A stretch of DNA of 15,426 nucleotides from Flavobacterium psychrophilum (GTDB taxonomy: Bacteria; Bacteroidota; Bacteroidia; Flavobacteriales; Flavobacteriaceae): the NCBI GenBank assembly GCA_022729635.1, contig DZAU01000038.1:1-15426 (forward strand), in the 5' to 3' direction. Under the pieces are notes generated by a model. That model saw only the letters and a program-made list of their open reading frames with translations. It ran no database searches and was not told the DNA's origin. The translations under genes and the position numbers were made by a program. Shown piece after piece: positions 1 through 14,910 of this stretch (its first letter is position 1; each line of letters opens with the position of its first letter).

Positions 1-1896
1 TCCAGCCTTTAGATAGCATTTCACTTTTTCAAAATGAAACGAATATCCAGCATCTACATTCAAAATGGCATAATCTGGCGTTCTGTCTTCACCATAAAAA
101 GGACTGAATTGGGTTTGTGTTGCATTGCCGAGAACCGCAATTTCTGAAGTGAATTTTCCTCTTTTATAATCTAAAGCAGCGAAATATCGCAACGGACTTA
201 TAAAAGGTAAATTTCTTTTTTCGAAGTCTTTCCCGTAGCTGTAAACCAATTGTCCTTTCCATTTTAATTCATTGGTAAAATGGTATTCCAAATTCAAATC
301 TGCGTTGAAAATAGTGGCATAATCCAGTGCTGTATAAATTTTTACGCCGCTTGCACCAATAGTCATTGGAATTAAAGTCTCGTCTGGTTTGCCAACAATA
401 TAATTGGAAATATGAAAATACGATGACGACATTTTCGCACTCCATTTTTGTGTTTTATAACCAATGAAAACATTTCCTTCTATAGAATTTTCATTTTTCA
501 TTTCTGGATTTCCAATGTAATCATAATTATCAAAACTATTGAATAAATAAAACCCATATCCTTCAGAAACCGAAGGTGCACGTTCGCCGTAAGCCAATCC
601 AAAACCATAAGAAAAACTATTTTCATCATAAGAATAACTAGAAGAAATACTTGGCAAAATTCTGTTTTTACTGTCATTCATATCGGGATAAAAAATCTGT
701 AAACTTTCTAAACCCAATTGGCTGTCAACCTTATTAAAATGGTTTGCCAAACTTGTCGAAAATTTCAAACTCGAATGACCATTCAGTGCGATATTGTCTT
801 CTAAAAACAAGGCTGTATAAATTGTTTTCACGTCTGGCCAAGTGTACATAAACATCAGTTTTTCGTTAGAATCAGCAGGATACATCGTCATTTCGGCAAC
901 AGAACGATTGTAAAAAGAATTCAAATCGGCCAGAAAATGATGTTTCCCGGAAACTCCTTTTATTTTGGAATAAAAGCCCGAAGTATCGCTCCAACCCGGC
1001 ATATCCATGTGAATAGGAACCGAAGGACGCTTGGTGTCATCCATTTTATGAGTGATGGTGTTGTAGTAAATTTTGGTTTCCCAGTTTTCGATTTTGGAAG
1101 ATTTTGGAGCATATTCAAATTTCAGGGAAGTGATTAATGCTTCTGCCAAAGAAACATCCATTGGCAAAGCCGGATAACCTACATTAGTTGCTTTGTCATA
1201 GATAATTGAAGCTTCAACCAATTTATTTTCATCAAAATAAAATCCGGAAGTTGCTGAAATATTGAATTTTTGAAACTGTGAAAACAAGACTTCCTGATCA
1301 TTCCCATCGGAATAATTTTCGGCATCACGAAACATAAAATCGGTGTCAACATAATACAAACTATCTGCATAATTTAGGGCAGTTCCGAAGATTTTTTGTT
1401 GGCTATTCGTTTCATATCCTGCGTTTGTTGAAGCATCCCAGCCAGTTTTTGAAAATCCGCTTCGGTTTCTTACTAAATCGACAGAACCTCCAATTGTCGC
1501 GCCATGACAAGCACCTTGTTGTCCTGATTTTAGGGTAGCTTCAGACAAATTAGAAACCTCAACATAAGAAGTAATAGGATCCATTTTATCGGTGCAAGCA
1601 CCAAAAACCCGCATCCCATCAATGGTGATCAAGGTTCTTTCGGTAGTCATATTATTGATTATGGGTTCCCATGCATAACTGCCACGACGAATCATATCTA
1701 CTTTTGTGGATTGTTGCAAATATTCATCTATTGTAGCCAATGGCTTGGTTTGTTTTTGGTACAGTTGTGCCTTTTTGCCAATGACAATAACTTCCTTTAA
1801 ATCTTTTGGAGCTATCGTATCTGCGGGTTTTCCTTGGGCAATAACAGCATTGGAAACCAAAAAAAACAACATTATAAAAATGATAAAGTTTTTCAT
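1..1896 (-). CDS. nosA: NosA/OprC-type TonB-dependent copper receptor (3' end off window)
   Basis: An open frame of 632 codons runs from the ATG at 1896 to the left edge without a stop; probably only a few dozen C-terminal residues are missing. A signal peptide (about 1-20, ending VIA-Q) is followed by a TonB-box-like segment near 31-42, a plug domain (about 50-145) and a long beta-barrel region. The plug carries GACTDKMDPITSY, with C101 and M105 in a CxxxM pattern, and the barrel carries THKMDD with H283-x-M285. These match the CxxxM and HxM copper ligands of Pseudomonas OprC, whose spacing (143 to 323) is nearly the same. OprC/NosA is an outer-membrane copper importer linked to N2O reductase maturation. 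The protein lacks the N-terminal carboxypeptidase-like domain of Bacteroidota SusC receptors. It lies behind two small metal-binding-type genes, probably in one transcript. The family call is firm; copper as substrate is inferred from the motif and the nos context. Confidence 0.88.
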   Translation of the reverse strand, partial: MKNFIIFIMLFFLVSNAVIAQGKPADTIAPKDLKEVIVIGKKAQLYQKQTKPLATIDEYLQQSTKVDMIRRGSYAWEPIINNMTTERTLITIDGMRVFGACTDKMDPITSYVEVSNLSEATLKSGQQGACHGATIGGSVDLVRNRSGFSKTGWDASTNAGYETNSQQKIFGTALNYADSLYYVDTDFMFRDAENYSDGNDQEVLFSQFQKFNISATSGFYFDENKLVEASIIYDKATNVGYPALPMDVSLAEALITSLKFEYAPKSSKIENWETKIYYNTITHKMDDTKRPSVPIHMDMPGWSDTSGFYSKIKGVSGKHHFLADLNSFYNRSVAEMTMYPADSNEKLMFMYTWPDVKTIYTALFLEDNIALNGHSSLKFSTSLANHFNKVDSQLGLESLQIFYPDMNDSKNRILPSISSSYSYDENSFSYGFGLAYGERAPSVSEGYGFYLFNSFDNYDYIGNPEMKNENSIEGNVFIGYKTQKWSAKMSSSYFHISNYIVGKPDETLIPMTIGASGVKIYTALDYATIFNADLNLEYHFTNELKWKGQLVYSYGKDFEKRNLPFISPLRYFAALDYKRGKFTSEIAVLGNATQTQFSPFYGEDRTPDYAILNVDAGYSFHFEKVKCYLKAG

Positions 1897-1911
1897 AAAA
1901 AAATGTAAAAT

Positions 1912-2087
1912 AATGAGGCTCTCTAGAAAAATTGTCATTTCGACGCAGGAAAAATCACATCTGTTGCTTTCGCCACAGCGAACAGGGTCGTTATGTGATT
2001 TACTTCGTCCGTTCGCTTTGCTCGGGTCTCCCTTTGGTCGAAATGACAAAATTGATTCTTAATTTTGATTTTTAGCCAGCCTCATTT
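1912..2087. repeat. Compound inverted-repeat element (MITE/REP-like) between two genes
   Basis: This 198-bp gap carries several nested or crossing inverted repeats. AATGAGGCT (1912-1920) pairs with AGCCTCATT (2079-2087). TTGTCATTTCGAC (1932-1944) pairs with GTCGAAATGACAA (2037-2049), a perfect 13-bp pair. AAATCACAT (1952-1960) pairs with ATGTGATTT (1993-2001). AGCGAAC (1977-1983) pairs with GTTCGCT (2011-2017). The last two pairs cross, so a pseudoknot-like fold is possible in RNA. The GTCATTTCGAC...GTCGAAATGAC ends resemble dispersed intergenic repeats I recall from Flavobacterium genomes. The core is more GC-rich than its surroundings. No transposase is present. It lies inside the presumed copper-module operon, so it may affect read-through into the receptor gene. 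Confidence 0.6.
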
Positions 2088-2094
2088 CTATTTA

Positions 2095-2934
2095 TTAAAA
2101 CTCGATTTCGAAGTAAATACTGCTTGCTGGAACGGCATCAGTAATGGTTTCTCCTTTCAAAATAGTTCCCGAAGCGTTGAGTAATTGCAAATTAATTTTC
2201 CAGTAACCTGTCATTGTCAGCGATAGTTTTCCGTTGTATAAATCTCCCGAAACCGTTTGGGTTAAATCTACATTATTAGGCGAACTGTGATTTCCCATGC
2301 TTGGCATTCTTGGATCAATTTTCAACTTAAAATTATCAACAGCCGGAAAAGTCATCATATCCTGCATTTTCCAGACGCCTGTTATCATATCGTTGATTCC
2401 TACTTTTGGATGATGTGGATCTGCGAAAGCTGCTATATATTTCACTCCATCAGAACCAGTAAATGTGGTTACTCTTTGTTTTGCAGAAGCGGGAACATCA
2501 ATTACAGATGTCATAGAATAGCTGGTTCCGTTTATGGTGTAGTCAATCTTTAAATCCCAGTATTCAGTTGCATTTTGCGCCATTTGAAAAACGATATAAC
2601 CTTCATAAACCAATCCGTCAGTGGAGATTTTCTCTATGGCAGATTTTGGACAAGAATGTGTCATCGTCGTCATGTGCATTTTAGGCATCCAAGAAACGGT
2701 AGCGTTTTTTATGTATTGATTGCTGGCATTGTCTTTGATTTTTAGGGCAATTTCGTTAAAACCTTGCTCTAAGCCTCCCATGTGTTTGTATAATTCAATG
2801 GTATGAGTAGTGTTTGTTATTTCTTTAAATTTAGTCATTCCATCTAATTCATCTACAGCCGGTTCATTCGAATCTGAAGTGCATGAAGCAAATATGGTTA
2901 CTAAAACCAATGGTAATATTCTTAAAAATTTCAT
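2095..2934 (-). CDS. Lipoprotein with two Met/His-rich YtkA-like repeats, putative copper binder
   Basis: A 279-residue protein with a lipoprotein signal peptide (IFASC, lipid Cys18) followed by an acidic stretch. Two similar beta-rich units follow. The first (about 55-135) contains the dense metal-ligand cluster MPKMHMTTMTHSCP at 83-96 and then a YWDLKIDY strand. The second (about 200-255) contains MPSMGNHSSPNNV at 210-222 and then GYWKINLQLL. The pattern of MPxM-H-SSP, strand, then GxWxIxLxL is that of YtkA-like/FixH-type domains found in copper-handling proteins. The gene sits between the small Cys protein and the NosA-like receptor on the same strand, so it could present copper to the receptor or accept it inside the envelope. 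The acidic residues after the lipid Cys leave open whether it faces the surface or the periplasm. Copper binding is inferred from ligand content and neighbours; the exact family is a judgement by eye. Confidence 0.7.
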   Translation of the reverse strand: MKFLRILPLVLVTIFASCTSDSNEPAVDELDGMTKFKEITNTTHTIELYKHMGGLEQGFNEIALKIKDNASNQYIKNATVSWMPKMHMTTMTHSCPKSAIEKISTDGLVYEGYIVFQMAQNATEYWDLKIDYTINGTSYSMTSVIDVPASAKQRVTTFTGSDGVKYIAAFADPHHPKVGINDMITGVWKMQDMMTFPAVDNFKLKIDPRMPSMGNHSSPNNVDLTQTVSGDLYNGKLSLTMTGYWKINLQLLNASGTILKGETITDAVPASSIYFEIEF

Positions 2935-2969
2935 TTTAATATTTTTTAAATTTGATAATAAAAAGTCCC

Positions 2970-2990
2970 TTCGATAAAGATTTTATCGAA
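2970..2990. repeat. Perfect 9-bp inverted repeat in copper-module leader
   Basis: TTCGATAAA (2970-2978), a 3-base spacer and TTTATCGAA (2982-2990) lie 36-56 bases upstream of the lipoprotein start, in the 82-base gap after the small Cys gene. On the transcribed (minus) strand the stem is followed by GGGAC and then five T residues. It could be a weak attenuator, an mRNA-stability hairpin or an operator. No known operator consensus is recognised. Confidence 0.4.
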
Positions 2991-3016
2991 AAAATAGTTG
3001 CAAAAAACTTGAAAAA

Positions 3017-3391
3017 TTAAGAAATGAAAATGGGAGGACGAAAAACAGAATCACTATTCAAATAGCAGTAAAAATTAGCATAAAAATAGTTTATTGTTGG
3101 TGTTTCCTCAAAATATAAAGATTTGATTTTAAATGATTTGAATTCTTCAAAAAATAATACTTCTAATTTATGATTTGCCGATTTTTTATCTGAGGAAATA
3201 GGCTTGTCGTTTTCAGAAGCTTTAGCAAGTTCTTTCATCAAATGACATTTTCCATTGCATTTCATTTTTGGTTTGTCCTTATTGACACAAAGTACTTGAG
3301 AAATATATTCATAATTAGCGATGTACTCTATAACCGGAAGTATTGGTTTTAGAAGGATGAACAGTGCTAATAGAGTTATAATTTTATTCAC
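3017..3391 (-). CDS. Small membrane-anchored Cys/Met/His protein (CNGKCHLM motif)
   Basis: A 124-residue protein. The N-terminal hydrophobic segment (about 4-25) is a signal anchor or uncleaved signal. It is followed by LCVNKDKPKMKCNGKCHLMK at 34-53, giving ligands C35, M43, C45, C49, H50 and M52. The rest is charged or aromatic, ending in VFRPPIFIS. The start is GTG: an in-frame TAA lies ten codons upstream and no ATG fits before the hydrophobic segment. An AAGGA precedes the GTG by about 12 bases. A perfect -7 element (TATTTTTG, minus strand, 3403-3396) lies so close that transcription from it would be nearly leaderless. I recall similar short proteins with the CNGKCHLM motif beside metal or TonB genes in Bacteroidota, but no established function. 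The cluster suggests Cu(I) or other soft-metal binding. It is the likely first gene of the copper module. Confidence 0.7.
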   Translation of the reverse strand: MNKIITLLALFILLKPILPVIEYIANYEYISQVLCVNKDKPKMKCNGKCHLMKELAKASENDKPISSDKKSANHKLEVLFFEEFKSFKIKSLYFEETPTINYFYANFYCYLNSDSVFRPPIFIS

Positions 3392-3463
3392 AGGACAAAA
3401 ATATCCTTTTTTAAAGAATTATTTTTATGATTATGGTCATATTTTTTTTAATTTTATAAAAAT

Positions 3464-3471
3464 TAAATTTG
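3464..3471 (+). promoter_or_regulatory. Bacteroidota -7 element for the Crp/Fnr gene
   Basis: TAAATTTG is a full match to the Bacteroidota -7 consensus TAnnTTTG. It predicts a start site near 3475 and a 5' leader of about 55 bases for the regulator gene. No clear -33 TTTG is visible; the upstream DNA is a T-rich tract. Confidence 0.45.
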
Positions 3472-3498
3472 CGGTCGTTGAATTTTGCTTTTCGTAAA

Positions 3499-3512
3499 TT
3501 GAAAAAAATCAA
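3499..3512 (+). promoter_or_regulatory. FNR/DNR-type box upstream of the regulator gene
   Basis: TTGAAAAAAATCAA matches TTGAT-N4-ATCAA at nine of ten fixed positions. It ends 17 bases before the ATG of the Crp/Fnr gene and lies downstream of the predicted start site. A bound regulator there would be expected to block its own transcription. The regulator's ExxxR recognition helix is of the class that reads this box. The tract is A-rich, so some chance match is possible. Confidence 0.5.
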
Positions 3513-3529
3513 CTTTATTAAAATTATTT

Positions 3530-4123
3530 ATGCAAATAAACATCGATTTACTTTATTCCTGGGGAGCAGTTGCAAAAAAATACAAAAAAAACGAAATTGT
3601 TTTTAATGAAGATGAAGTTGCCTTTTTCTATTACCAAATCTTAGAAGGTGGTGTTAGAATGTACAATTCTAATGAAGAAGGAAAGGAATTTACCCAAGGC
3701 CTTTTTTGCCCTGGAGATGCTTTTGGCGAGCCACCATTATTTATTAACGACACTTATCCTTCTACGGCTGTTACCATTCAAGACAGTACAATATTAAAAT
3801 TGTCAAAAGACAAATTTTTAAAAATTTTGGAGGAGTATCCATACATACAAAAATATTTTTTGACTCTATTTGCCCAAAAAATTCATTCAAAAGCAAACAC
3901 ATCAAAAGAAATCATCAATCAAAAACCAGAGTTTAGAGTCATTGCGTTTTTAAATTCATTCAAGAAAAAATCAGGAAATCCCGGCGAAAGAGAATTTATT
4001 CCATATACTCGTCAGGAAATTGCCAATTTTACGGGATTAAGGGTAGAAACCGTAATTCGAGTTTTAACAAAAATGAATGAATGCAATAAAGTGGAAATCA
4101 TCAATCACAAAATATATTATTAA
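3530..4123 (+). CDS. Crp/Fnr-family transcription regulator, DNR-like (no Fe-S cysteines)
   Basis: A 197-residue protein with a cyclic-nucleotide-binding-type beta barrel (about 16-100, including FCPGDAFGEPPLF at 59-71), a dimer helix (about 105-130) and a C-terminal winged helix-turn-helix (about 156-195). The recognition helix reads RVETVIRVLTK (171-181); E173 and R177 form the ExxxR pattern of FNR and DNR, which read TTGAT-N4-ATCAA. FNR's N-terminal cysteine cluster is absent (only C60 and C185), so O2 sensing through a 4Fe-4S cluster is unlikely. Heme-based NO sensing as in DNR, or another effector, is more plausible but cannot be read from sequence. A matching box lies in its own leader and another before the nos operon, which makes it the obvious local regulator. 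Its stop codon abuts the ATG of the next gene, so the two are probably translated together. Confidence 0.85.
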   Translation: MQINIDLLYSWGAVAKKYKKNEIVFNEDEVAFFYYQILEGGVRMYNSNEEGKEFTQGLFCPGDAFGEPPLFINDTYPSTAVTIQDSTILKLSKDKFLKILEEYPYIQKYFLTLFAQKIHSKANTSKEIINQKPEFRVIAFLNSFKKKSGNPGEREFIPYTRQEIANFTGLRVETVIRVLTKMNECNKVEIINHKIYY

Positions 4124-5356
4124 ATGCTATTGAACACAAAATTTTGGCTCAAATTCTCTTTGTTAAACTTATGTATTGTTGCATCTCTCGGGGTTTTGAT
4201 GCGCTATAAAATTGGTTTTGAATTTCCTTATTTTGAGCAAAAAAACTTGCAGCATTCGCATTCGCATTTTGCCTTTGCCGGTTGGATCAGTCATACTTTA
4301 ATGGTGTTGATGGTCTATTATCTTCAAACCAAAATAACCCATTTTCAGGAAAATAAATACACAAAAACAATTATTGCTAATTTAGTTTGTTCTTATGGAA
4401 TGCTCGTTTTCTTTATAATTCAAGGCTACGGATTGTACTCCATAATTTTTTCGACCGCATCAATATTTGTTTCTTATTATTTTGGTTACCAATTCTTAAA
4501 GGATTTAAAATTATTGGATGAGGATTTACTGGCAAAAAAATGGTTTAAAGCCGCAATATTTTTTAATATAATTTCGTCTTTAGGCACATTTTATCTGGCT
4601 TATATGATGATCAGCAAAAATTTTGTTCAGGATTTATATTTGTCTTCGGTCTATTACTATTTGCATTTTCAGTACAATGGTTGGTTTTTCTTTGCTTGTA
4701 TGGGGTTGCTTTTTGGTTTATTAAATCTTCGGAAATCTGAACATCTCTTCTATGAAACTACATTTAAATTGTTTGCGATAGCCTGTATTCCTGCTTACCT
4801 TTTGTCAATACTATGGTTAGATTTGCCTGTTTGGCTGTATATTATTACAGTAATTGCTGCATTGACACAGGTTTTTGCTTGGTTCAAATTCCTATTTATT
4901 TTATGGAAAACCAAAAGGAATTCACTTGAAAACTTTTCTCCATTGTTACAATACATTTTAGTTTTTGTGGGTTTTTCTCTAAGTGTAAAATTAGTACTCC
5001 AACTAGGCTCTACAGTTCCAGCTATTAGCCAATTGGCTTTTGGTTTCAGACCCATTGTTATCGCTTATTTACATCTTGTTTTATTAGCAATAATTACTTT
5101 ATTTTTATTGTTTTATATCTATGCTAATCATTTAATTTATCCCAACAAAAAAATTAAATTTGGAGTATTCCTATTCTCTGTTGGAGTTATCCTAAACGAA
5201 ATTGTCTTGGCTATTCAAGGTATCACTTCAATAAACTATACCATAATTCCATACATTAACGAAATCCTTTTTGGAGTTTCGATTATATTATTTATTGGAA
5301 TTGCTATAACTGCCTTTTTTTCTTTAAAAAAAGTTAAAAATTATCTTCCTTTATGA
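4124..5356 (+). CDS. 12-TM membrane protein with heme-copper-oxidase-like His layout, function unknown
   Basis: A 410-residue polytopic protein with about 12 predicted helices (approximately 8-27, 47-67, 82-100, 103-123, 141-163, 178-201, 212-232, 235-261, 273-294, 309-335, 345-366, 378-400). Histidines are concentrated in three helices: HSHSHFAFAGWISH in helix 2 (H44, H46, H48, H57), YLHFQYNGWFFF in helix 6 (H181) and AYLHLVLL in helix 10 (H317). Twelve helices with His in helices 2, 6 and 10 recall heme-copper oxidase or NO reductase subunit I, but the HH pair of helix 7 and the remaining CuB ligands are not evident. It may be a degenerate relative or an NnrS-like heme protein for NO stress. 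It abuts the DNR-like regulator (TAA immediately followed by ATG), pointing to a regulated role in NO or N2O metabolism. The gene is clearly real; the function is unassigned. Confidence 0.6.
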   Translation: MLLNTKFWLKFSLLNLCIVASLGVLMRYKIGFEFPYFEQKNLQHSHSHFAFAGWISHTLMVLMVYYLQTKITHFQENKYTKTIIANLVCSYGMLVFFIIQGYGLYSIIFSTASIFVSYYFGYQFLKDLKLLDEDLLAKKWFKAAIFFNIISSLGTFYLAYMMISKNFVQDLYLSSVYYYLHFQYNGWFFFACMGLLFGLLNLRKSEHLFYETTFKLFAIACIPAYLLSILWLDLPVWLYIITVIAALTQVFAWFKFLFILWKTKRNSLENFSPLLQYILVFVGFSLSVKLVLQLGSTVPAISQLAFGFRPIVIAYLHLVLLAIITLFLLFYIYANHLIYPNKKIKFGVFLFSVGVILNEIVLAIQGITSINYTIIPYINEILFGVSIILFIGIAITAFFSLKKVKNYLPL

Positions 5357-5422
5357 TTGCACTCATAAAATAATTGTTAAAAAATGAAGTGCTTTGTCTT
5401 ATAACATTTAAGTTTTTTAAAT

Positions 5423-5977
5423 ATGAGAAAATCTATTCAATTAGTATTAATTGCTAGCTTATTCGCTGTTTTTGGATGCAAACAAAATAGCGAAGCTAAA
5501 ACTGAAGCAACAACCGAAAACACAGAAGTAACACCAACAGGGCAAGAAGCTGTTGTTGACGAAACATCGGCACCAAACATTGTTCAAGTAGCTTCCGGAA
5601 GTAAAGACCACACCACATTAGTAGCTGCTGTAAAAGCTGCAGATCTTGTTAGATCATTAAGTAATGCTGGTCCTTTCACTGTTTTTGCTCCTACAAATGC
5701 TGCATTCGATAAACTTCCTGCTGGAACTGTTGAAGGTTTATTGAAACCAGAAAAAAAGGGAGATTTGGAAAATATTCTAGGGTATCATACCTATGTAGGC
5801 GTATTGAAAATAGAATATATGCAGGATGGTCAGGAGTTTGACATGGTTTATGGCGGAAAAGTAAAAATCACTAAACAGGGAGAGAAAACTTTCGTTAATG
5901 GCTCTGAAATAGTTGCTTCAATACCTACATCAAATGGAATCATTCACGTTATTAACGACGTTTTACTTCCAAAATAA
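5423..5977 (+). CDS. Fasciclin (FAS1) domain lipoprotein
   Basis: A 184-residue protein. The signal peptide ends in VFGC (probable lipid Cys19, with an unusual Phe in the lipobox), followed by a Glu/Thr-rich linker (about 22-50) and one FAS1 domain (about 52-184). Hallmarks are FTVFAPTNAAF (85-95), the YH motif at 121-122 and the C-terminal NGIIHVINDVLLP (171-183). FAS1 domains usually serve adhesion or protein interaction in the envelope. The protein lies 66 bases behind the 12-TM gene with no convincing promoter of its own, so it may be read through from the regulator transcript. From memory, single-FAS1 lipoproteins recur near denitrification genes in Bacteroidota, so a role in envelope assembly or protection is possible. 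The family is certain; the role is not. Confidence 0.9.
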   Translation: MRKSIQLVLIASLFAVFGCKQNSEAKTEATTENTEVTPTGQEAVVDETSAPNIVQVASGSKDHTTLVAAVKAADLVRSLSNAGPFTVFAPTNAAFDKLPAGTVEGLLKPEKKGDLENILGYHTYVGVLKIEYMQDGQEFDMVYGGKVKITKQGEKTFVNGSEIVASIPTSNGIIHVINDVLLPK

Positions 5978-6011
5978 AATTACTAATTCATCTTACTATT
6001 ACCAAAACCCT

Positions 6012-6044
6012 AAAAAGCGTAAGTTTTAAACACTTACGCTTTTT
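6012..6044. terminator. Bidirectional intrinsic terminator between FAS1 gene and nos operon
   Basis: AGCGTAAGT (6016-6024) and ACTTACGCT (6032-6040) form a perfect 9-bp stem with a 7-base loop. Flanking A and T tracts extend it to 13 bp and give a U-tract on either strand. It ends the FAS1 transcript on plus and the globin end of the nos operon on minus. Confidence 0.85.
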
Positions 6045-6073
6045 TTTAATCCATCAATTAAGAAATAGCAGTA

Positions 6074-6445
6074 TTAACCCAATGCTTTATTACTCATCTC
6101 TTTCGAAATATTTATAGCTCTCAATTTTATTTCTTCTGCTTTTTCACCAGAAAACAATTCATCTACGGTTTTAACGAAAAGTTCATTCCAATAAGCAAAA
6201 TGCTCTTGGGTTACTACACTTTTTTTATGTAATTCTTCGTGTGTTACCATAGGATTTCCGTCGTAATCTCCAGTAGAAAACAATATATTTTCAAAAAAAC
6301 TATACATTTTAGGCAAATGATCTTCCCATTTTACTTTGACAACGTCAGTAAAAAAATAACTGATTCCTGCATCTAACTTAATTTTTTCATAAAAAGCATT
6401 GACAAGTATTTCAATATCTGCCCTATTTTTAATGTCTGTCTTCAT
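6074..6445 (-). CDS. Group III truncated hemoglobin
   Basis: A 123-residue single-domain globin. Motifs fit truncated hemoglobin group III: FYEK with Tyr19 (position B10), WEDHLPKMYSFF with His43 (a likely E7 residue), GNPMVTHEELHKK with the proximal His candidates H69 and H73, and HFAYWNELFVKTVDELF with Trp86 (position G8). The Tyr-His-Trp distal set is that of Campylobacter Ctb, which binds O2 tightly and is induced under nitrosative stress. It starts 57 bases after the nosY stop on the same strand, before the shared terminator, and only a 7-of-8 -7-like match lies between, so it is probably the last gene of the nos operon. It may bind NO or O2 to protect N2O reductase assembly or respiration. 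Family call firm; role inferred. Confidence 0.9.
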   Translation of the reverse strand: MKTDIKNRADIEILVNAFYEKIKLDAGISYFFTDVVKVKWEDHLPKMYSFFENILFSTGDYDGNPMVTHEELHKKSVVTQEHFAYWNELFVKTVDELFSGEKAEEIKLRAINISKEMSNKALG

Positions 6446-6502
6446 TTTTTAAAGTATAGTAAACCCAAAAAAAGGCACGAACCATTTTGGAGTTTATTTA
6501 AA

Positions 6503-7279
6503 TTACAAATCTTTTATTTTAAATTTTTTGAGAGAAATAAATAAAGGAACAAAAATCCAAATACACAAGAGTATAAATGAAACGATTAGCCCAACTGAAG
6601 TTCCAAAAAAATCTTTAAAAATAGCACCTGTGTAGCCCATCATTGCCGAAACATCAAGGTGTAACAAAATTTGGATTCGAGCCAAATCTATTGGACTCAA
6701 TGCCGTAACCGCTATCATGGCTTTTTCTATTGGATAATCTGAAAATTGAAATAATAGGAACAAAACCATTCCGTCAAAAAGCAAGGCAAAATATAGCCAA
6801 GTCATTATGGCAAACCCAATGCCTTTGGCTTTGTCTCTGGTAAGAATAGAACTTAGGAAAGCCAAAGCCACAAAAATAACAGAAATCAAACAGCCTACAA
6901 GAATCATCATAATTCCGATAACGTCAGGTGAATTGATTAATAATGGGATTCCTGCACCAATAAAAAAAGCAACCGTCATAGAAAGTGACAATCCGATGAA
7001 TAGGCTCAACCATATTTTATTTCGCTTAACGGGTTGACTCAATAAAAGTTCAATGAATTCATTAGAATTGTATAAATAAATTGTTGCAAAAAGGATGGAA
7101 ACTAAAGGAACGGTAAACAAAATCACATTCAATATGGTAAGCAGGCCTTTGGCAGAATTATCTTCTAATGCAAACGAACTCCAGGAAAGTAATGCAAGTA
7201 TAAAGGTGTATGCCAATACAATCTTGTTTTTTAAAATGTCAAGAATTATAATTTTAATGATTCTATTCATTGCTTTCAC
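6503..7279 (-). CDS. nosY: NosY, ABC permease for N2O reductase maturation
   Basis: A 258-residue protein with six hydrophobic segments (about 19-37, 50-70, 94-114, 118-144, 151-179, 226-249) and the short loops of an ABC-2-type permease. NosY is the membrane partner of NosF; with periplasmic NosD they form NosDFY, needed to build the CuZ site of NosZ. It overlaps the nosF stop by 17 bases if it starts at 7279; the second Met (codon 4, at 7270) is an equally good start and would still overlap. Order and strand (D, F, Y) are those of nos operons generally. Sequence alone would give only 'ABC permease'; the assignment rests on neighbours. Confidence 0.88.
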   Translation of the reverse strand: MKAMNRIIKIIILDILKNKIVLAYTFILALLSWSSFALEDNSAKGLLTILNVILFTVPLVSILFATIYLYNSNEFIELLLSQPVKRNKIWLSLFIGLSLSMTVAFFIGAGIPLLINSPDVIGIMMILVGCLISVIFVALAFLSSILTRDKAKGIGFAIMTWLYFALLFDGMVLFLLFQFSDYPIEKAMIAVTALSPIDLARIQILLHLDVSAMMGYTGAIFKDFFGTSVGLIVSFILLCIWIFVPLFISLKKFKIKDL

Positions 7280-8021
7280 TTTTTAAAATTTTGGCAATTG
7301 CTTTTGATATTTTTTGTTCGTTTGTTGATTGCAATAAATTTTCAATAGATTTATGAAAATGTACTTTCCCGTCTTGCATAAAAATAATTTGACTAATCAT
7401 ATCGTCTAGTTCGCTTAAAAGGTGAGACGTAATTAATATAAGTTTTCCTTTTTCTTTTTCTTTAATAATTTTCTCTTTTAGTATTTCGGATGCCAATGGG
7501 TCTAATCCTGCTGTTGGTTCATCTAAAATCAAAACCTCTGGATTAAATAAAAAAGCTAAAACGGCACTCACTTTTTGTGTTGTTCCGCCTGAAAGTGTTC
7601 GCATTTGTTTGTCGAAAATTTTTTCGAATTCAAAGGCTTTGAGTAAATCTTCATCTAAATTCTGTTCAGAGTTTCGGATTTTTTTAATCATTTCTATGAT
7701 TTGCCTCACTGTCATATAATCTGGATAACGCCCTATTTGTGGCATATAACCAATATTTTCTCTGTATTTGTATTTTTTTAGTATTGATTTTTGATCAAAT
7801 AAAATATCGCCTTTGGTTGGGATTACCATTCCTAAAATACTTTTTATTAAGGTTGTTTTTCCGCAACCATTTGGGCCAATTAATGCGATGCATTCCCCTT
7901 TTTCGAAAGTAAGATTGACATCTTGTAATGCTTCAAATTTTCCAAACTTTTTGTGTATGTTTTTTATTTCTATCATTTTATTGGTTGCGGGTTTCGGGTT
8001 TTTCTCTTCAACTTGTGTCAT
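7263..8021 (-). CDS. nosF: NosF, ABC ATPase for N2O reductase maturation
   Basis: A 252-residue ABC ATPase with all catalytic motifs: Walker A GPNGCGKT (49-56), Q-loop at MPQ (93-95), signature LSGGTTQK (143-150), Walker B VLILDEPTAGLDP (163-175) and switch His200. It powers NosDFY, which interacts with NosL and NosZ during copper-centre assembly. The ATG at 8021 lies one base after the nosD stop, typical of coupled translation, so I keep this start. However, the ABC domain itself begins at the second Met (codon 16, MIEIKNIHKKFG), and the 15-residue lead is Lys/Pro-rich and encoded by degenerate ACCCGAAACCCG-like DNA, so the shorter form is possible. Confidence 0.93.
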   Translation of the reverse strand: MTQVEEKNPKPATNKMIEIKNIHKKFGKFEALQDVNLTFEKGECIALIGPNGCGKTTLIKSILGMVIPTKGDILFDQKSILKKYKYRENIGYMPQIGRYPDYMTVRQIIEMIKKIRNSEQNLDEDLLKAFEFEKIFDKQMRTLSGGTTQKVSAVLAFLFNPEVLILDEPTAGLDPLASEILKEKIIKEKEKGKLILITSHLLSELDDMISQIIFMQDGKVHFHKSIENLLQSTNEQKISKAIAKILKSESNE

Positions 8022-8022
8022 T

Positions 8023-9252
8023 TCAACCCGGAATTTTTTTCATTAATGGCTTATTGTCTATAAAATTATCTGGCGTTATACTTGGTAATATTTTTTCGGA
8101 TTTGTCTAAAAGGGTTATCATAAAACTTCTGAATAAAAGCATCGCAGAGGGATTATTTTCAATAAGAACAGCAAACAAGCTCAGTGGATGGTATGGGACA
8201 TCGCCTATTTCATCTTTATTCAAATCGTATCCTTGATATTTGTCCCAATAATTTGAGTTGAAAGTGTTCAACACCAAGCTTCCATTGGTTCCCATATCAA
8301 AGGTGTTTCCAACAAAATTATTATGCACAATCTCATTGTCTATACTACTTGCTTGAATTTGCATAGCCCAACCATTACTTATAAATTGGTTTTTTTCTAT
8401 TTTATTTCTACTACTTCCTTCAACATAAATAGCCGAAGTATTTTTTATAAATTTATTATTAAAAATGTAACTGTCTGAAATGTCTTTTAAAAGCAACCCA
8501 TAGGCAGATGCACCCCAATTTTCATCAAAAGTGTTGTTGAACATTTTAACATCTTTGGTGTACATAACCGCAACTCCTGCACCGTTATTTCTAAAAACAT
8601 TGGTGATATAAGTGTCACTATGAGAAAACATAAAGTGTAAGCCGTATCGTATATTATTTGTGCTTATGTTTCTCCAAATTAAAGAATCATAGACAAATTC
8701 AAAATAAATCCCATCTCTATGACCATCAATGCGATTAGCAATAATTAATATGTCGTTTGATTTCCAGCAATGAATTCCGTTTCCAAGTTGTTGCTCTTCT
8801 TCACCGTAAGCTTTTAGATAGTTGTTTTTTATGGTACAATTTTGACAATTTTGAAGATAAATTCCAAAAAAATTATCATCTAAAACATTATTTTGAATTA
8901 ATACATGGCTTTTATTATAAACTTTAATGCCACAAGGATCTGTAATGGTAGCATACGCACTTTTTATTATTTTAAAACCATCTACTACAACACTATCTGC
9001 TTGAATTGATAAGACTTCGTGTTTTTTTTCTCCATCTAAAATGGGTAAGCCCTCGCCTTTAAAAACAATTTTTTTATCAATTATGATATTACCTTCTCGA
9101 TATTTCCCACTATGCACTATAATGGTATCACCATCTTTGGCTAAAGAGATGGCTTTTTTTACTGATTTTACAGCATAATCCTTACCAACGTGAATCGTGG
9201 TTGCTTTTAGCGTAAGCGAAAAAAAAAGTAGTAGAATTAGGAAATATTTCAT
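8023..9252 (-). CDS. nosD: NosD, periplasmic beta-helix copper-assembly protein
   Basis: A 409-residue protein with a Sec signal peptide (about 1-17) and a long parallel beta-helix made of repeated NxxxN/G strands (about 40-330), for example LIQNNVLDDNFFGIYL and MFNNTFDENWGASAYG. The C-terminal NYWDKYQGYDLNKDEIGDVPY is the usual NosD/CASH ending, followed by a tail of about 65 residues including a hydrophobic patch. NosD binds in the periplasm to the NosFY transporter and receives copper from NosL for NosZ. The gene begins 6 bases after the nosL stop. No frame damage is seen. Confidence 0.95.
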   Translation of the reverse strand: MKYFLILLLFFSLTLKATTIHVGKDYAVKSVKKAISLAKDGDTIIVHSGKYREGNIIIDKKIVFKGEGLPILDGEKKHEVLSIQADSVVVDGFKIIKSAYATITDPCGIKVYNKSHVLIQNNVLDDNFFGIYLQNCQNCTIKNNYLKAYGEEEQQLGNGIHCWKSNDILIIANRIDGHRDGIYFEFVYDSLIWRNISTNNIRYGLHFMFSHSDTYITNVFRNNGAGVAVMYTKDVKMFNNTFDENWGASAYGLLLKDISDSYIFNNKFIKNTSAIYVEGSSRNKIEKNQFISNGWAMQIQASSIDNEIVHNNFVGNTFDMGTNGSLVLNTFNSNYWDKYQGYDLNKDEIGDVPYHPLSLFAVLIENNPSAMLLFRSFMITLLDKSEKILPSITPDNFIDNKPLMKKIPG

Positions 9253-9258
9253 TTCACT

Positions 9259-9678
9259 TTAATTAATAATTTCTTTCCAAGTAATTGGACTTGCACTATA
9301 TTTTGTTGCTAATTGTTTTGCTTCATCTTCAGTTTTTACGGCGATTATATTGCCATGCATCGGACTATTTATTTGTTCTCCTTTTACATAATACGCTGTT
9401 TCGGCTGGGATTAAAACATTATCTTGGCTAAAATCGTGAATATAAAAAGATTGTATTTGAACAGCTGTATTTTCTTTGTGATATTTAACCATACAATGCA
9501 TATCGTCAAATTTATAAATTCTTCCTTTGGTAGTGATAAGTTCGGCTCCAAATTTTCCGTCTGCTATTTTCATTTTGCAGAAATCACATCCATCAGAATT
9601 TAATTTAATTGGTTCCGCTCCTTTTGGTGAGCAAGAAACCATTATTAAAAAAATTAAAAAAAAAGACAACTTTTTCAT
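9259..9678 (-). CDS. nosL: NosL, Cu(I) chaperone lipoprotein
   Basis: A 139-residue lipoprotein (MVSC, lipid Cys16). The mature part opens with DGCDFCKMKI, the conserved CxxCKM (C31, C34, M36) of NosL, and continues with FDDMHCMVKY (M60, H61, C62, M63) and SPMHGNIIAV (105-114). NosL holds Cu(I) with Cys/Met/His and passes it to NosD/NosZ. Its ATG abuts the stop of the preceding 4-TM gene, so the two are translationally linked. In many clade II clusters nosL lies at the distal end; here it sits before nosD. Confidence 0.96.
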   Translation of the reverse strand: MKKLSFFLIFLIMVSCSPKGAEPIKLNSDGCDFCKMKIADGKFGAELITTKGRIYKFDDMHCMVKYHKENTAVQIQSFYIHDFSQDNVLIPAETAYYVKGEQINSPMHGNIIAVKTEDEAKQLATKYSASPITWKEIIN

Positions 9679-10263
9679 TTATATTGATTTTTTATATTTG
9701 AATTCTTTTAAAACTACAGTAAACAATAAAATTCCTGCTGCTAAAAGCATCCATCCACCCATATCTGGAATTGAATAAGCTCCAAAATTCAATAATTGTT
9801 TGTATCCTATTAATGGCGGTTGATAACTCATTCCAGGGACTTTAATTGCTGCATTTGGGTCGAGATTGTGACCATATTCGTAATTCCATCTGTAAAAATC
9901 TATTCCGGCAAAAATTACAAATAGCACAAATATTATCAAAAATCCTAAAACGGCTTTTCTTTTGTTTATGAATATCAAGGCTAACGAAATAATTGCAAAA
10001 GCACCAAAAATATACGGAAGAATTTTAAACTCAAAAAAGTTTTCTGTATGTAAAGTTGCCATTCCAATATAGTGATTTAGTCCGTTAATAATATCAACAT
10101 CACCACCGATTTTATTGGCATGTAATTGAAGCACTAACCCTTCTGGATATTGCGGAGCTTCTAATTCAATTCTCCACATAGGCACAAATAAAGAGCCTAA
10201 GAATAATAAGCCAATGACCAAAAGCATGGCTTTTGATAACATTGTTAAATTTGAATTTTTCAT
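9679..10263 (-). CDS. 4-TM protein of the nos operon (between nosZ and nosL), function unknown
   Basis: A 194-residue protein with four predicted helices (about 10-28, 80-99, 103-122, 168-186). An outward loop of about 50 residues after helix 1 holds LQLHANKIGGDVDI and GLNHYIGM (H48, H64, M68, H72). A second loop holds YGHNLDPNAAIKVPGMSY (H132, M145). The loops are rich in His and Met, compatible with copper or heme contact. I recall a conserved membrane protein in this place in Bacteroidota nos operons; it could correspond in role to the NosB-type membrane proteins that follow nosZ in clade II clusters, but I cannot confirm homology, so no symbol is given. It starts 52 bases after the nosZ stop, just behind the terminator-like hairpin, and abuts nosL. 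Confidence 0.75.
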   Translation of the reverse strand: MKNSNLTMLSKAMLLVIGLLFLGSLFVPMWRIELEAPQYPEGLVLQLHANKIGGDVDIINGLNHYIGMATLHTENFFEFKILPYIFGAFAIISLALIFINKRKAVLGFLIIFVLFVIFAGIDFYRWNYEYGHNLDPNAAIKVPGMSYQPPLIGYKQLLNFGAYSIPDMGGWMLLAAGILLFTVVLKEFKYKKSI

Positions 10264-10277
10264 TTTTTTTAGGATTT

Positions 10278-10306
10278 AAAAAAGGGAGCATTTTGATTTG
10301 CTCCCT
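10278..10306 (-). terminator. Terminator-like hairpin directly behind nosZ (likely attenuator)
   Basis: On the minus strand AGGGAGCA, an 8-base loop and TGCTCCCT (10306-10283) form a perfect 8-bp GC-containing stem followed by a run of T (10282-10278). It starts about 10 bases after the nosZ stop. Because the assembly genes continue on the same strand 15 bases further and no clear promoter fits in the gap, it probably lowers, rather than ends, transcription, leaving cytochrome c and nosZ in excess over nosLDFY. Confidence 0.7.
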
Positions 10307-10315
10307 ATTTTTGAT

Positions 10316-12307
10316 TTATTTTGTAGAAGAGGCGGGTAAATTAGTACCTAAACTATAACTAATTGGAACATTACTTCCAGCTGGTGATACCCGAATATAT
10401 CCTTGCATTTCTTGATGTAAAGCACTACAAAAATCGGTACAATAAAACGGAACCATACCCACTTTTTTAGGTTTCCAATTTAATGTAGCTGTTTCACCAG
10501 GCATGATAAGTAACTCTGCGGTTGGTGCTCTTCTAATTGAAAATCCATGAGGAACATCCCAATCCTGTTCAAGATTTGTAATGTGGAAATAAACATCATC
10601 CCCCACTTTTATTCCTTCAATATTATCTGGAGAAAAATGAGAGCGTACCATAGTCATATAAACATGTACTTTATTTCCTTCTCTAACCACTTTAGTTTCT
10701 TTTTCGCCTTTTGCAACTTTAGGGTGATTGTTTTTCTTTATATCGTAAATTTTCAACTGTCCATTATTACGAATTAAATCTGCCGGAGCTGCTTGAGCGT
10801 AGTGTGGTTCTCCAATAGTTGGGAAATCCAACAATAATTGCATTTTGTCTCCACTAATATCATACAATTGTGCTGATTGAGTTAATTCTGGGCCTGTTGG
10901 CAAATATCTGTCTTTCGTAATTTTGTTATACGCAATTAGGTATTTACCATAAGGTTTTTTAGAATCACCACCAGGAATACATAAGTGTCCAACGGAATAA
11001 TAAGTAGGAACTCTATCTAAAACTTTCAACGATTTTATATCCCATTTTACCACTTCAGAAGAAACAAAGAATGTGGTATAAGCATTTCCTTTACCATCAA
11101 ATTCTGTATGCAATGGTCCTAATCCAGGTTTTTGAACTTCGCCATGTAGTACAGAGTTATATTTTAAAACAGGAATCCCTTCGTAGTCACCTTCATAATC
11201 TTTTTTAGCAATAGCATTCGTCATTTTGTCAAAACTAAATACAGGGATTAATGCGGCTAATTTTCCAGAACCTACAATGTATTCTCCGGTTGGGTCAACA
11301 TCGCAACCATGTGGTGATTTTGGACAAGGCATTAGGTAGCAAATATCTTTCATCGCCATTGCATCTAAAACTAACACTTCATCTTTAATTACAGAAGTCC
11401 CTGTGTGAGTTTCATCATTCCAGGTATTGTGAGCATATTTTGTTTTTTCAATTTTACCTTTCCCTGCTTTAATATATTCTTCCGCTTTTTTCCAGTTTAC
11501 TGCCATTATAAAATCTTTATCTCTTTGAGAGGCGTTTACTTCTAAAAGCGTATTGGCTTGTTCTGAATTGTAGCAAGTGAAGAAAAACCATCCGTGAGAT
11601 TTTCCTTTACCAGCATGAGAAAGATCAAAATTTACCCCTGGCAAACGCAATTGGAAGGCAATACTCATACCTCCTGTTTCTTTATCAACTTTTATAAAAC
11701 TTATGTGTGCTTTAAAATTTTGTTTATAAGTGTTAATTGGCACATCACCATTTTCATAATCTCCAGGCACACCAAAACGTGTTCCTGCCACGACATATTC
11801 TGTATTTTCGGTAATAAATGGAGAGGAGTGATTACCAGCAGAATTAGGTAATTCGATAATTTCTGCCGTTTTAAAACGTTTTAAATCTACTCTTGCAACA
11901 CGGGGTGTGTTGTTTGCGTTTGCAAAAATCCATCTTCCATCAACTTCACCATTCGTTTGAGATAATTCTAAATGGTGTTGATCGTCCCATGGTATAAACC
12001 CTTCAGAGGTGTTTAACATTGGTTTTGATTCTTCATTAAAACCCCATCCGCTTTCTGGATCTACCGAAAAAATTGGAATAACTTTCAACATTCTTCCACT
12101 TGGCAAACCATAAACGCTCATTTGACCGCTAAAACCACCAGAAACGAAATTATAAAATTCATCATATTTACCTGGTGCAACATAAACACGTTGAGCAGCA
12201 TCTCCAGTTACAGCATCTCCAGAATTTTTAGGCTTACAAGAGGCGAAAAAAGCTGTTACTAATACAATAGCAAAAATTGCTTTTAAAAATTTGTTTTTCA
12301 TATTCAT
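10316..12307 (-). CDS. nosZ: NosZ, clade II nitrous oxide reductase, apparent lipoprotein
   Basis: A 663-residue copper enzyme reducing N2O to N2. The N-terminus is a Sec-type signal with no twin arginine, ending FFASC, so Cys24 would be lipidated. The seven CuZ histidines are visible: H111 and H112 (DDQHHLEL), H160 (GNHSSP), H333 (SPHGCDVDP), H400 (PLHTEFD), H441 (VGHLCIPGG) and H502 (GEPHYAQA). The C-terminal cupredoxin domain (about 535-645) has the CuA ligands H587 (VPHGF), C623, C627, H631 and M634 in CTDFCSALHQEM. The Sec signal and CTDFC, in place of the CxWxC of clade I, mark clade II. All ligands are intact, so the enzyme should be active. Met3 (12301) is an alternative start. Behind it follow a hairpin and the assembly genes; before it lies its likely electron-donor cytochrome. 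Confidence 0.98.
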   Translation of the reverse strand: MNMKNKFLKAIFAIVLVTAFFASCKPKNSGDAVTGDAAQRVYVAPGKYDEFYNFVSGGFSGQMSVYGLPSGRMLKVIPIFSVDPESGWGFNEESKPMLNTSEGFIPWDDQHHLELSQTNGEVDGRWIFANANNTPRVARVDLKRFKTAEIIELPNSAGNHSSPFITENTEYVVAGTRFGVPGDYENGDVPINTYKQNFKAHISFIKVDKETGGMSIAFQLRLPGVNFDLSHAGKGKSHGWFFFTCYNSEQANTLLEVNASQRDKDFIMAVNWKKAEEYIKAGKGKIEKTKYAHNTWNDETHTGTSVIKDEVLVLDAMAMKDICYLMPCPKSPHGCDVDPTGEYIVGSGKLAALIPVFSFDKMTNAIAKKDYEGDYEGIPVLKYNSVLHGEVQKPGLGPLHTEFDGKGNAYTTFFVSSEVVKWDIKSLKVLDRVPTYYSVGHLCIPGGDSKKPYGKYLIAYNKITKDRYLPTGPELTQSAQLYDISGDKMQLLLDFPTIGEPHYAQAAPADLIRNNGQLKIYDIKKNNHPKVAKGEKETKVVREGNKVHVYMTMVRSHFSPDNIEGIKVGDDVYFHITNLEQDWDVPHGFSIRRAPTAELLIMPGETATLNWKPKKVGMVPFYCTDFCSALHQEMQGYIRVSPAGSNVPISYSLGTNLPASSTK

Positions 12308-12360
12308 TAAAATTAGAAACCGTCTTTGGATTTAAATACAATAAGACAGTCGGGTTAGTT

Positions 12361-12840
12361 CTATTTTATTTCATCATTTTTACGCATGAACTCCAAAATA
12401 TTTCTTGCATCATCATCAGACAAACCTTGATTTGGCATGCGCACAAGGCATATTTCTAATTGTGCTTGTACTTCAGGATCTTTATCAATCATTGGATCTG
12501 GATTTGTGATAAAGTTCATAATCCATTCTGGTTTTTTTCTCTTAGTAACACCTTTCCATCCAGGTCCAACTAATTTCTCTTCTGTTGTTTTGTGACATGA
12601 AGTACACTTTACTCCCGCTGCCTCTTCTCCTTTTTTGGCCATAGCTTCATCTATTGAAGCTCCAAGATCTACAGTTGTAAATTTTCCTTCACCCCTTTCT
12701 GGATCATAAGAAGACGGATCGGTTGTAGCTGTTGTTTCAGTTGCAGCTTCTTTAGTTGAAAAATCTTCGCTAACGTTTTCTTTCTTGCCACATGAAGTAA
12801 ACATTACAAATGCAAGAATAAATAATAATAATTTGTACAT
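12361..12840 (-). CDS. Lipoprotein monoheme cytochrome c, probable NosZ electron donor
   Basis: A 159-residue protein with a lipoprotein signal (MFTSC, lipid Cys17), an acidic/Thr-rich linker (about 20-60) and a small class I cytochrome c domain (about 62-155). The heme site is CTSCH (C79, C82, H83); M135 in VRMPNQGLSDDDARNIL is the likely sixth ligand. VGPGWKGV (91-98) is the usual loop after the heme helix. It is the first gene of the nos operon, 53 bases before nosZ. With no nosR or nosX in view, quinol electrons would reach NosZ through such a cytochrome, presumably from a cytochrome c-reducing complex elsewhere. The linker would let the heme domain swing between partners. Confidence 0.9.
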   Translation of the reverse strand: MYKLLLFILAFVMFTSCGKKENVSEDFSTKEAATETTATTDPSSYDPERGEGKFTTVDLGASIDEAMAKKGEEAAGVKCTSCHKTTEEKLVGPGWKGVTKRKKPEWIMNFITNPDPMIDKDPEVQAQLEICLVRMPNQGLSDDDARNILEFMRKNDEIK

Positions 12841-12865
12841 AAAAATTGGTTTTTAAATTTCTTGT

Positions 12866-12873
12866 CAAATTTC
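12866..12873 (-). promoter_or_regulatory. Putative -7 element of the cytochrome c/nosZ operon
   Basis: Read on the minus strand, GAAATTTG matches TAnnTTTG except for the first base. It would place the start site near 12862, about 20 bases before the cytochrome ATG, and the upstream palindrome near -41. No good -33 element is seen, as expected for an activator-dependent promoter. Confidence 0.4.
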
Positions 12874-12894
12874 TGAATAGAGTTACAAACAAGT

Positions 12895-12910
12895 TATGAT
12901 TGTAATCATA
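12895..12910. promoter_or_regulatory. FNR/DNR-type palindrome upstream of the nos operon
   Basis: TATGATTGTAATCATA is a perfect inverted repeat (7-bp arms, 2-base spacer). Its core TGAT-N4-ATCA matches the FNR/DNR box TTGAT-N4-ATCAA except for the outermost T and A. Its centre lies about 62 bases before the cytochrome start codon and about 41 before the predicted start site, the classical position for class II activation. The DNR-like regulator at 3530-4123 is the natural candidate to bind. Confidence 0.6.
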
Positions 12911-12921
12911 CTTCATAAAGT

Positions 12922-12949
12922 TTTTTTGTCTTGTTTTGATGACAAAAAA
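12922..12949. repeat. Inverted repeat in divergent nos/Spy-like promoter region
   Basis: TTTTTTGTC (12922-12930) and GACAAAAAA (12941-12949) are perfect 9-bp arms around a 10-base spacer. It lies between the nos palindrome and a near-consensus -7 element (TAAACTTG, 12953-12960) that could serve the plus-strand Spy-like gene. It may be an operator; part of the match comes from A/T runs. Confidence 0.35.
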
Positions 12950-13024
12950 TGATAAACTTGTGTTAATAATTAAACTTTATAAAGATGTTGAAGTCCTATG
13001 ACTATAACTTAAAAATATAAAAAA

Positions 13025-13522
13025 ATGAAAAAATTAATTTTTGTGCTAATGCTCGTTGTTGGATTTTCTGCTTTTGCTCAAAACACTAAAGAAATGAGAA
13101 ACAGAACAGGTAGAGGTTCGATTGAAAAAATGGCCCCAGAACAACGAAACTTGTTAATGTTAAAAAAAATGACGTTAAAACTTGATTTGAATGCAAAACA
13201 ACAAGAACAAATCAAACCAATCATTGCCGAACGAAGTGCAAGAAGGGAAGCATTAAAAGCTGAAAGAATGGCTAGAAAACAAAACAATGAAAAACTTTCG
13301 GCCGATGCTATTTTTGAAATGAAAAGCAAAAGGTTAGACAACCAAATTGCTACTAAAAAAAGAATGGAGAAAATCCTCACTACGAAACAATTCGAAAAAT
13401 GGGCTTCAATACAAGAAGAAAATAAAAGCTTTCGTCAAGAAAGACTTAAAAACTCAAAAAAAGGAAACAGGGGAGGAAACCAACAATGTGACCAACAAGG
13501 AAAAAGACAAAGACAAGGTTAA
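13025..13522 (+). CDS. Spy/CpxP-like periplasmic LTxxQ-type protein
   Basis: A 165-residue protein with a cleaved Sec signal peptide (FSAFA-Q, cut after about 18). The mature part is almost entirely helical and rich in Lys, Arg, Gln and Met, with two degenerate LTxxQ units: LDLNAKQQEQIKPI (about 53-66) and ILTTKQFEKW (about 117-126). The C-terminal tail is Gly/Gln/Lys-rich with a single Cys. This is the pattern of Spy/CpxP-family chaperones and metal-stress sensors; Bacteroidota carry many such proteins. It is divergent from the cytochrome c/nosZ operon and shares its 184-base upstream region, so it may respond to the same signal. Whether it acts as a chaperone for periplasmic nos proteins is speculation. 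It ends at its own terminator. Confidence 0.7.
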   Translation: MKKLIFVLMLVVGFSAFAQNTKEMRNRTGRGSIEKMAPEQRNLLMLKKMTLKLDLNAKQQEQIKPIIAERSARREALKAERMARKQNNEKLSADAIFEMKSKRLDNQIATKKRMEKILTTKQFEKWASIQEENKSFRQERLKNSKKGNRGGNQQCDQQGKRQRQG

Positions 13523-13546
13523 AAATTGGTTAGTATAATTTGTCTG

Positions 13547-13579: not shown

Positions 13580-13612
13580 TTTTATTCTCATCAAATTGAT
13601 GTCATCAAAATA

Positions 13613-14899: not shown

Positions 14900-14910
14900 T
14901 ATATTTTGAG

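Follow-up and report, generated by a model that had tools for sequence, protein, structure and literature searches.

We found that a stretch of Flavobacterium psychrophilum DNA (GenBank assembly GCA_022729635.1, contig DZAU01000038.1, positions 1 to 15,426; all 15,426 nucleotides [nt] are here called the window) begins with what is probably a copper-import operon carrying its own leader copper switch. The window is a Flavobacterium-like nos region, and the module consists of three minus-strand open reading frames (ORFs): in transcription order, a gene for a small protein with a CNGKC motif, a lipoprotein gene, and a TonB-dependent receptor gene. An earlier reading of this DNA from its letters alone (the sequence-only reading) had described a three-gene copper acquisition module at positions 1 to 3391, and we confirmed all three ORFs there on the minus strand. 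The module is real and copper-linked, and its lipoprotein-receptor half is strongly supported. In that reading, the receptor, the lipoprotein, and the link to nosZ held up, and the proposal that the CNGKC protein relays copper was not supported. In our reading, the CNGKC gene most likely serves to sense copper for the operon and not to carry it.

The operon's first gene, here called the leader, runs from 3391 to 3017 on the minus strand and encodes 124 amino acids (aa) from a GTG start; it was defined from the ORF list, homologues, and conservation. The lipoprotein gene (2934 to 2095, minus strand; 279 aa, lipobox Cys18) encodes two tandem CrdA/YtkA-like domains, and the receptor gene (1896 to 1, minus strand) encodes 632 aa before the window edge cuts off its 3′ end. 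The co-occurrence of the three families had been proposed as a check on the module. We searched 149 genomes of the family (receptor, E ≤ 1e-40; lipoprotein, E ≤ 1e-5; CNGKC gene, E ≤ 1e-6), scoring the best few candidates per genome (eight or four for the receptor), so that copies may be missed. The receptor and the lipoprotein were found in the same 35 genomes, and the CNGKC gene was found in 91. All 35 receptors had a CNGKC gene upstream and a lipoprotein gene adjacent on the same strand, ordered leader-lipoprotein-receptor in 25 cases and leader-receptor-lipoprotein in 10. This three-gene association is far beyond chance. We also found that nosZ exceeded its cut-off in 69 of the 149 genomes and was present in 29 of the 35 receptor genomes, compared with 40 of the 114 others (P = 6e-7); for 15 of the 35 receptors, the distance to nosZ is less than 10 kb.

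In the phylum set (296 genomes), 80 genomes contained the CNGKC gene. Strong receptor matches (E ≤ 1e-85) had the lipoprotein in 14/14 cases and the leader in 12/14, compared with 14/26 and 5/26, respectively, for weak matches. Furthermore, 28 of the 30 lipoprotein matches adjoin a receptor, which, together with the 35/35 count, bears out the proposed partnership of lipoprotein and receptor. In 12 regions upstream of distant lipoprotein-receptor pairs (L160 to L171), we found no frame of at least 50 codons with a Cx2-3C motif and Pro-Pro (PP) in its last 14 residues. These are 12 of the 14 phylum-set pairs without a CNGKC match; the two left out are a pair at a contig end (G413) and a second copy in G339. 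Because the phylum-set receptors keep the lipoprotein more than the leader, receptor and lipoprotein seem to form the older core, to which the leader is tied in Flavobacteria and some relatives.

The receptor aligned with OprC (PDB 6fok) at an E value of 9.8e-18, and a 657-aa database protein was 100% identical to it over 99% of its length. Its TIGR01778 score, obtained with the receptor cut at the C terminus, was 128 bits, below the equivalog cut-off of 472 bits, and we therefore call it OprC-like only. The copper ligands of OprC are Cys143, Met147, His323, and Met325 (PMC8610252). They aligned to C101, M105, H283, and M285 of the window receptor. By OprC alignment and receptor comparison, the CxxxM half of the site (1582 to 1596, minus strand) lies in GACTDKMD, aligned to GACPNRMD of OprC, and the HxM half (1042 to 1050, minus strand) lies in THKMDD, aligned to DHIMDN. 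The C-to-H spacing is 182 residues, near the 180 of OprC, as had been read from the sequence. All four residues were identical in 121/121 aligned sequences and in 42/42 compared receptors, including two Proteobacterial OprC-type ones. Binding and import of ionic copper by the receptor are predicted on this basis.

Besides its low score, the receptor differs from OprC in having a dedicated lipoprotein and extra Met motifs. We found (H/R)MDMP, MxMY/F, and M(F/Y) in the 37 lipoprotein-type receptors among the 42, the further motifs being mostly EMTMY and MFM; these could possibly form a docking site or a methionine track. The other five receptors (L122, L139, L147, Cupriavidus, and Serratia) lack the motifs or have altered forms. 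L122, L139, and L147 have TonB receptors of 757 to 788 aa with the OprC ligand set (NACPNRMDPIT, DHLM) and a CNGKC leader in front; at these three loci, no such lipoprotein lies nearby.

The lipoprotein has the two Met/His clusters that the sequence-only reading had noticed, MPKMHMTTMTHSC (residues 83 to 95; 2650 to 2688, minus strand) and MPSMGNH (residues 210 to 216; 2287 to 2307, minus strand), and sequence conservation showed both to be nearly invariant. The second domain matched PF13115 (YtkA) with 28.1 bits, compared with a cut-off of 25.9 bits, and the domains match the CrdA fold with a Met-rich motif. Foldseek against the PDB ranked many unrelated immunoglobulin (Ig) folds first, and CrdA stood out on a second look. 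The lipoprotein thus shares an Ig-like fold and a Met-rich motif with CrdA of Helicobacter pylori and the YtkA family, and it differs from them in its two tandem domains, its added His and Cys, and its ties to an OprC-like receptor. These results support the view that it is the receptor's partner, of a putative copper-binding type. Behind the lipid Cys comes a stretch with many Ser/Thr, Asn, Asp, and Glu residues. It is similar but not identical to SDDFE, the surface-export signal of Flavobacterium johnsoniae lipoproteins (PMC5080379), and the lipoprotein may or may not lie at the surface.

We collected 134 homologues of the CNGKC protein, 84 from the genome scan (the best 80 loci of 154) and 50 from 40 further regions. 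Part of the homologue search relied on the Cys region, and counting required CxGxC, so Cys conservation is biased; Pro-Pro was absent from the genome-scan patterns. The CNGKCHLM motif of the sequence-only reading was found at residues 45 to 52, and CNGKC itself (residues 45 to 49; 3245 to 3259, minus strand) makes up, with C35, three invariant Cys. Across 135 sequences (the 134 and the window), the invariant positions were these Cys, one Gly, and two C-terminal Pro. In the window, the latter belong to FRPP (residues 117 to 120; 3032 to 3043, minus strand), four residues from the C-terminal end. PP stood 1 to 9 residues before the C terminus in 134/134 homologues, whereas PP within the final 15 residues was seen in 15 of 853 neighboring genes. 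The residue before PP was H, R, or K in 125 homologues, preceded by Phe in 118, and the distance from the Cys motif to PP was 63 to 71 residues (mean, 68.4; SD, 1.7). The protein has a hydrophobic N terminus, conservation is lowest in the middle (1.2 bits, compared with 3.7 for F[RH]PP), and the predicted structure is poor (mean pLDDT, 63.8; pTM, 0.21; no residue above 90).

A co-directional gene follows 129 of the 134 leaders; of the other five, four run into a contig end, and in the fifth a spurious ORF overlaps. The median gap from leader to next gene was 109 nt, compared with 54 nt for later gaps. Using Pfam on 30 representatives, we classed the downstream genes as MbnP(H) (67), OprC-like/lipoprotein (31), YHS/SCO1 (6), other TonB receptors, some accompanied by PepSY_TM (13), porin-like (8), and other, tandem leader, or contig end (9). 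The receptor's partners do not, then, occur mostly with non-copper receptors, since 104 of the 134 leaders head genes of the first three classes. At L046, L048, L133, L150, and L151, two leaders each precede their own genes. A trans-acting protein would not need such per-operon copies. We prefer to read the CNGKC gene as a leader because of these copies, the invariant PP, and the poor predicted fold.

Two further observations concern these loci. At L113, L114, and L119, a small ORF (about 145 aa) stands between two leaders, ahead of MbnP-type genes; the one at L113 is a lipoprotein by its lipobox and has no Pfam match. In many loci (L007, L048, L050, and others), a porin-like protein with DACGCSA(S/N)GGSMGF is the third gene, after MbnP and MbnH; its counterpart at L113 has no Pfam match.

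The leader has a distinctive promoter. TATTTTTG, a sigma-A −7 box (TAnnTTTG) at 3396 to 3403 on the minus strand, ends exactly 4 nt before the GTG. The same holds in 69/134 leaders (62 GTG, 7 ATG), compared with 4/812 other genes of L001 to L080, for which any start in the first 31 codons was allowed; start codons of the 134 leaders were GTG (83), ATG (24), TTG (22), and undecided (5). In F. psychrophilum, the sigma-A box occupies −12 to −5, and leaderless mRNAs are 5.5% of those examined (PMC9723704). With a box 4 nt from the start codon, the first transcribed base would therefore be that codon's first base, and we predict that the leader transcript is leaderless in the Flavobacterium-rich set.

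A palindrome, TATGA-N6-TCATA, lies at 3426 to 3441 (no strand), centered at about −42 from the predicted start, and recurs at 5352 to 5367 and 12895 to 12910. The core ATGA-N6-TCAT was found upstream of 16/31 receptor-operon leaders, centered at −41 to −42 in 16/16, compared with 7/102 other leaders, five of them at −63 to −67. Class II Crp/Fnr sites are centered at −41 to −42, and we infer that the palindrome is a Crp/Fnr-type operator. The window holds four copies of the core (shuffles: mean, 0.65; highest, 4). Three extend to the full palindrome, before the leader, a fasciclin gene, and the cytochrome c-nosZ operon, and these make a candidate regulon of the Crp/Fnr-family gene at 3530 to 4123 (plus strand; Pfam cNMP_binding and HTH_Crp_2). 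This gene is divergent from the operon and is its candidate activator. Copper uptake and N2O reduction may thus be linked through a single Crp/Fnr regulator.

One close parallel is CruR (DUF2946; Bordetella bp2923), the first gene of a TonB-receptor operon. CruR detects copper through its CXXC and arrests the ribosome at its C-terminal RAPP, and Rho termination follows when copper is present (PMC9426467). The CNGKC leader likewise is the first gene, with a hydrophobic N terminus, a Cys motif, a near-end PP at fixed spacing, a stretch richer in C than in G, and a long gap behind it. It precedes the same types of genes (PMC9426467), heads copper operons with conserved motif spacing, and has a poor structure model, as reported for CruR. 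The C>G stretch at the leader 3′ end (+12.9, compared with −2.9) resembles the rut region of cruR. A leaderless promoter geometry in the Flavobacterium-rich set distinguishes the CNGKC leaders from CruR.

We propose the following model. The divergent Crp/Fnr regulator would switch the operon on along with the nos genes, and in the Flavobacterium clade transcription would begin on the first base of the leader GTG. The nascent CNGKC peptide would go to the membrane, and its three-Cys module would sample copper during translation of the C-terminal F[R/H]PP. Copper would set ribosome pausing and so decide if the lipoprotein and receptor genes are reached by RNA polymerase or by new ribosomes. The 68-residue spacing should allow the Cys module to exit the translocon before Pro-Pro is read. 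We favor control that is on at low copper and off at high copper, as in CruR, because the operon genes serve uptake. The receptor would take copper at CxxxM-HxM and, powered by TonB, import it to supply NosZ and other copper enzymes of the periplasm, and the lipoprotein, with its two CrdA-like Met/His domains, would be its dedicated copper-binding partner. The regulated step could be transcription or translation; the C>G stretch would favor the Rho route, but its amino acids nearly account for it.

Small leader ORFs also precede OprC-type receptors elsewhere. A DUF2946-type ORF lies directly before an OprC-type receptor, in the same place as the CNGKC gene, on plasmids of Serratia and Pandoraea (both annotated) and Cupriavidus (our own reading); PMC9426467 also describes such a CruR-type ORF before an OprC-type receptor. 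On two Pantoea plasmids, the DUF2946 gene is followed by one for a "DUF2534 family protein" instead of a receptor. Moreover, oprC is in an operon with PA3789, which encodes a FoxB-like inner-membrane reductase-like protein (PMC8610252). These cases call for amending the remark of the sequence-only reading that OprC/NosA in Pseudomonas was not known to need such partners. The window receptor thus resembles OprC/NosA both in its CxxxM-HxM ligands at the same aligned places and in having a small leader ORF upstream. A link to N2O reduction is a further resemblance, to NosA, for which it is disputed between strains (PMC8610252).

Several observations weigh against our model. Unlike CruR, the leader has CxxxC rather than CXXC, F[HRK]PP rather than RAPP, and a spacing of 68 rather than 45 residues. 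We rejected membership of the CNGKC family in DUF2946, since the hhalign probability was below 1% against seven DUF2946-type sequences, and in Pfam and NCBIfam no family holds for the protein, which gave single weak chance matches only. The amino acids explain the C>G stretch almost wholly (expected, 12.2; seen, 13.3). We found little if any codon selection for C in this rut-like stretch: NNC codons made up 29.6% of the last 35 codons, compared with 30.1% in controls, and the NNC excess over expectation was 1.1 points (P = 0.009; controls, 0.6; SD, 4.0). A special RNA hairpin in the spacer was not supported, as leader spacers had z-scores at the level of other co-directional gaps (−2.99, n = 72, compared with −2.94, n = 111) and were less structured than gaps inside operons (−3.08, n = 72, compared with −4.42, n = 81). 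With the start column fixed, the exact leaderless geometry was found in 67/84 leaders of L001 to L080 and in 0/50 of the distant sets, where the box lay within 25 nt of the start in 29/47. As to context, nosZ is absent from 6 of the 35 receptor genomes, so the proposed placement of the module next to nos is borne out in part. Leaders also stand before 13 other TonB receptors and 8 porin-like genes of unassigned substrate. The leader of L066 precedes an AraC-type regulator, and that of L141 precedes a SusC/SusD pair, which is the single context that clearly does not look copper-related. Finally, a stable protein may still be produced from the leader.

It is possible, if unlikely, that the leader instead works like CutF, with copper binding outside the cytoplasm promoting pausing and so opening a stem-loop that hides the next start, which turns the genes on. 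CutF has a CxxxC, a Pro-rich end, and a stem-loop and is read in the periplasm, and it turns expression on with copper (PMC9973294). CutF-like proteins are short, with CxxxC, PP in the last 15 residues, and a downstream copper gene on the same strand; the window leader has the CxxxC motif, 124 aa, PP four residues from its end, and an 82-nt gap. Bacteroidota supply 19% (40% normalized) of the 5,334 CutF-like proteins, and TonB-type genes are among the neighbor classes (PMC9973294). The gap itself (2935 to 3016, minus strand) has no TAnnTTTG box and contains a conserved hairpin at 2970 to 2990 with one double and three single pair-keeping changes and none broken among eight sequences; a second covarying hairpin occurs in another clade, the covariation being modest. 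The 68-residue spacing would also reach past the translocon. However, spacer structure was not above controls, and copper-on control makes little sense for an uptake operon.

Slightly less likely still is that the CNGKC protein is a stable, membrane-anchored carrier whose Cys/His/Met module relays copper from the receptor or the lipoprotein. The three invariant Cys, the conservation of H50 and M52 in 98% of close homologues, the hydrophobic N terminus, and the mostly copper-related contexts would suit this role. Against a carrier, the gene does not occur once per genome but in front of each operon, with tandem and internal copies as well, and half of the leaders (67/134) head MbnP(H) genes. 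The invariant C-terminal PP, placed like an arrest motif, the fixed spacing, the variable middle, and the poor predicted fold also argue against it, and none of the 12 distant pairs, chosen as lacking a CNGKC match, has such an ORF upstream. We consider it very improbable that the lipoprotein and receptor serve silver/copper detoxification or another metal; CrdA is named a copper resistance determinant, but the OprC-type ligand set, the nosZ link, and the import direction of TonB receptors speak for copper supply.

The rest of the window includes a clade II-type nosZ at 10316 to 12307. We named nosZ and nosD through NCBIfam, and the names nosL, nosF, and nosY rest on gene place and sequence. 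Nested inverted repeats (arms 1912 to 1929/2069 to 2086 and 1932 to 1944/2037 to 2049) fill the lipoprotein-receptor gap at 1912 to 2086 and look like a small repeat element within the operon. Directly 3′ of the Crp/Fnr gene, positions 4124 to 5356 encode a 410-aa polytopic membrane protein without a Pfam match, whose place is held by a gene of similar size in several related loci. Between nosZ and nosL, positions 9679 to 10263 encode a 194-aa membrane protein without a clear family. Rfam at gathering thresholds gave no match within the window.

Copper-responsive leader ORFs are a kind already known, of which the CNGKC family would be a variant. We found no experiment on a Bacteroidota CutF-like protein in the excerpts of PMC9973294 and, in searches of the open-access PMC literature, no description of the CNGKC family or of a tandem CrdA lipoprotein with an OprC-like receptor. 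RAPP/RGPP leaders of TonB-related genes occur across Gram-negative bacteria, and those of copper-related genes are missing in Bacteroidota (PMC12992588), which fits a different motif there. More tentatively, the CNGKC leaders might be arrest peptides that sense copper and form a lineage of their own in Bacteroidota, in which the fixed Cys-to-PP stretch of about 68 residues is a ruler for reading periplasmic copper and signaling back to the ribosome, copied per operon for the supply of NosZ, oxidases, and MbnP and carried on leaderless GUG-start mRNAs in Flavobacterium.

N2O reductase is limited by the supply of copper, and much of clade II nosZ is carried by Bacteroidota. The operon described here offers a concrete copper-import unit for N2O-reducing Bacteroidota, an OprC-like receptor with a lipoprotein and a putative copper leader. 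Leaders of the CNGKC family, with F[HRK]PP at the C terminus, may occupy the gap that RAPP/RGPP copper leaders leave in Bacteroidota, and a hypothetical protein of 91/149 family genomes becomes a candidate regulator.

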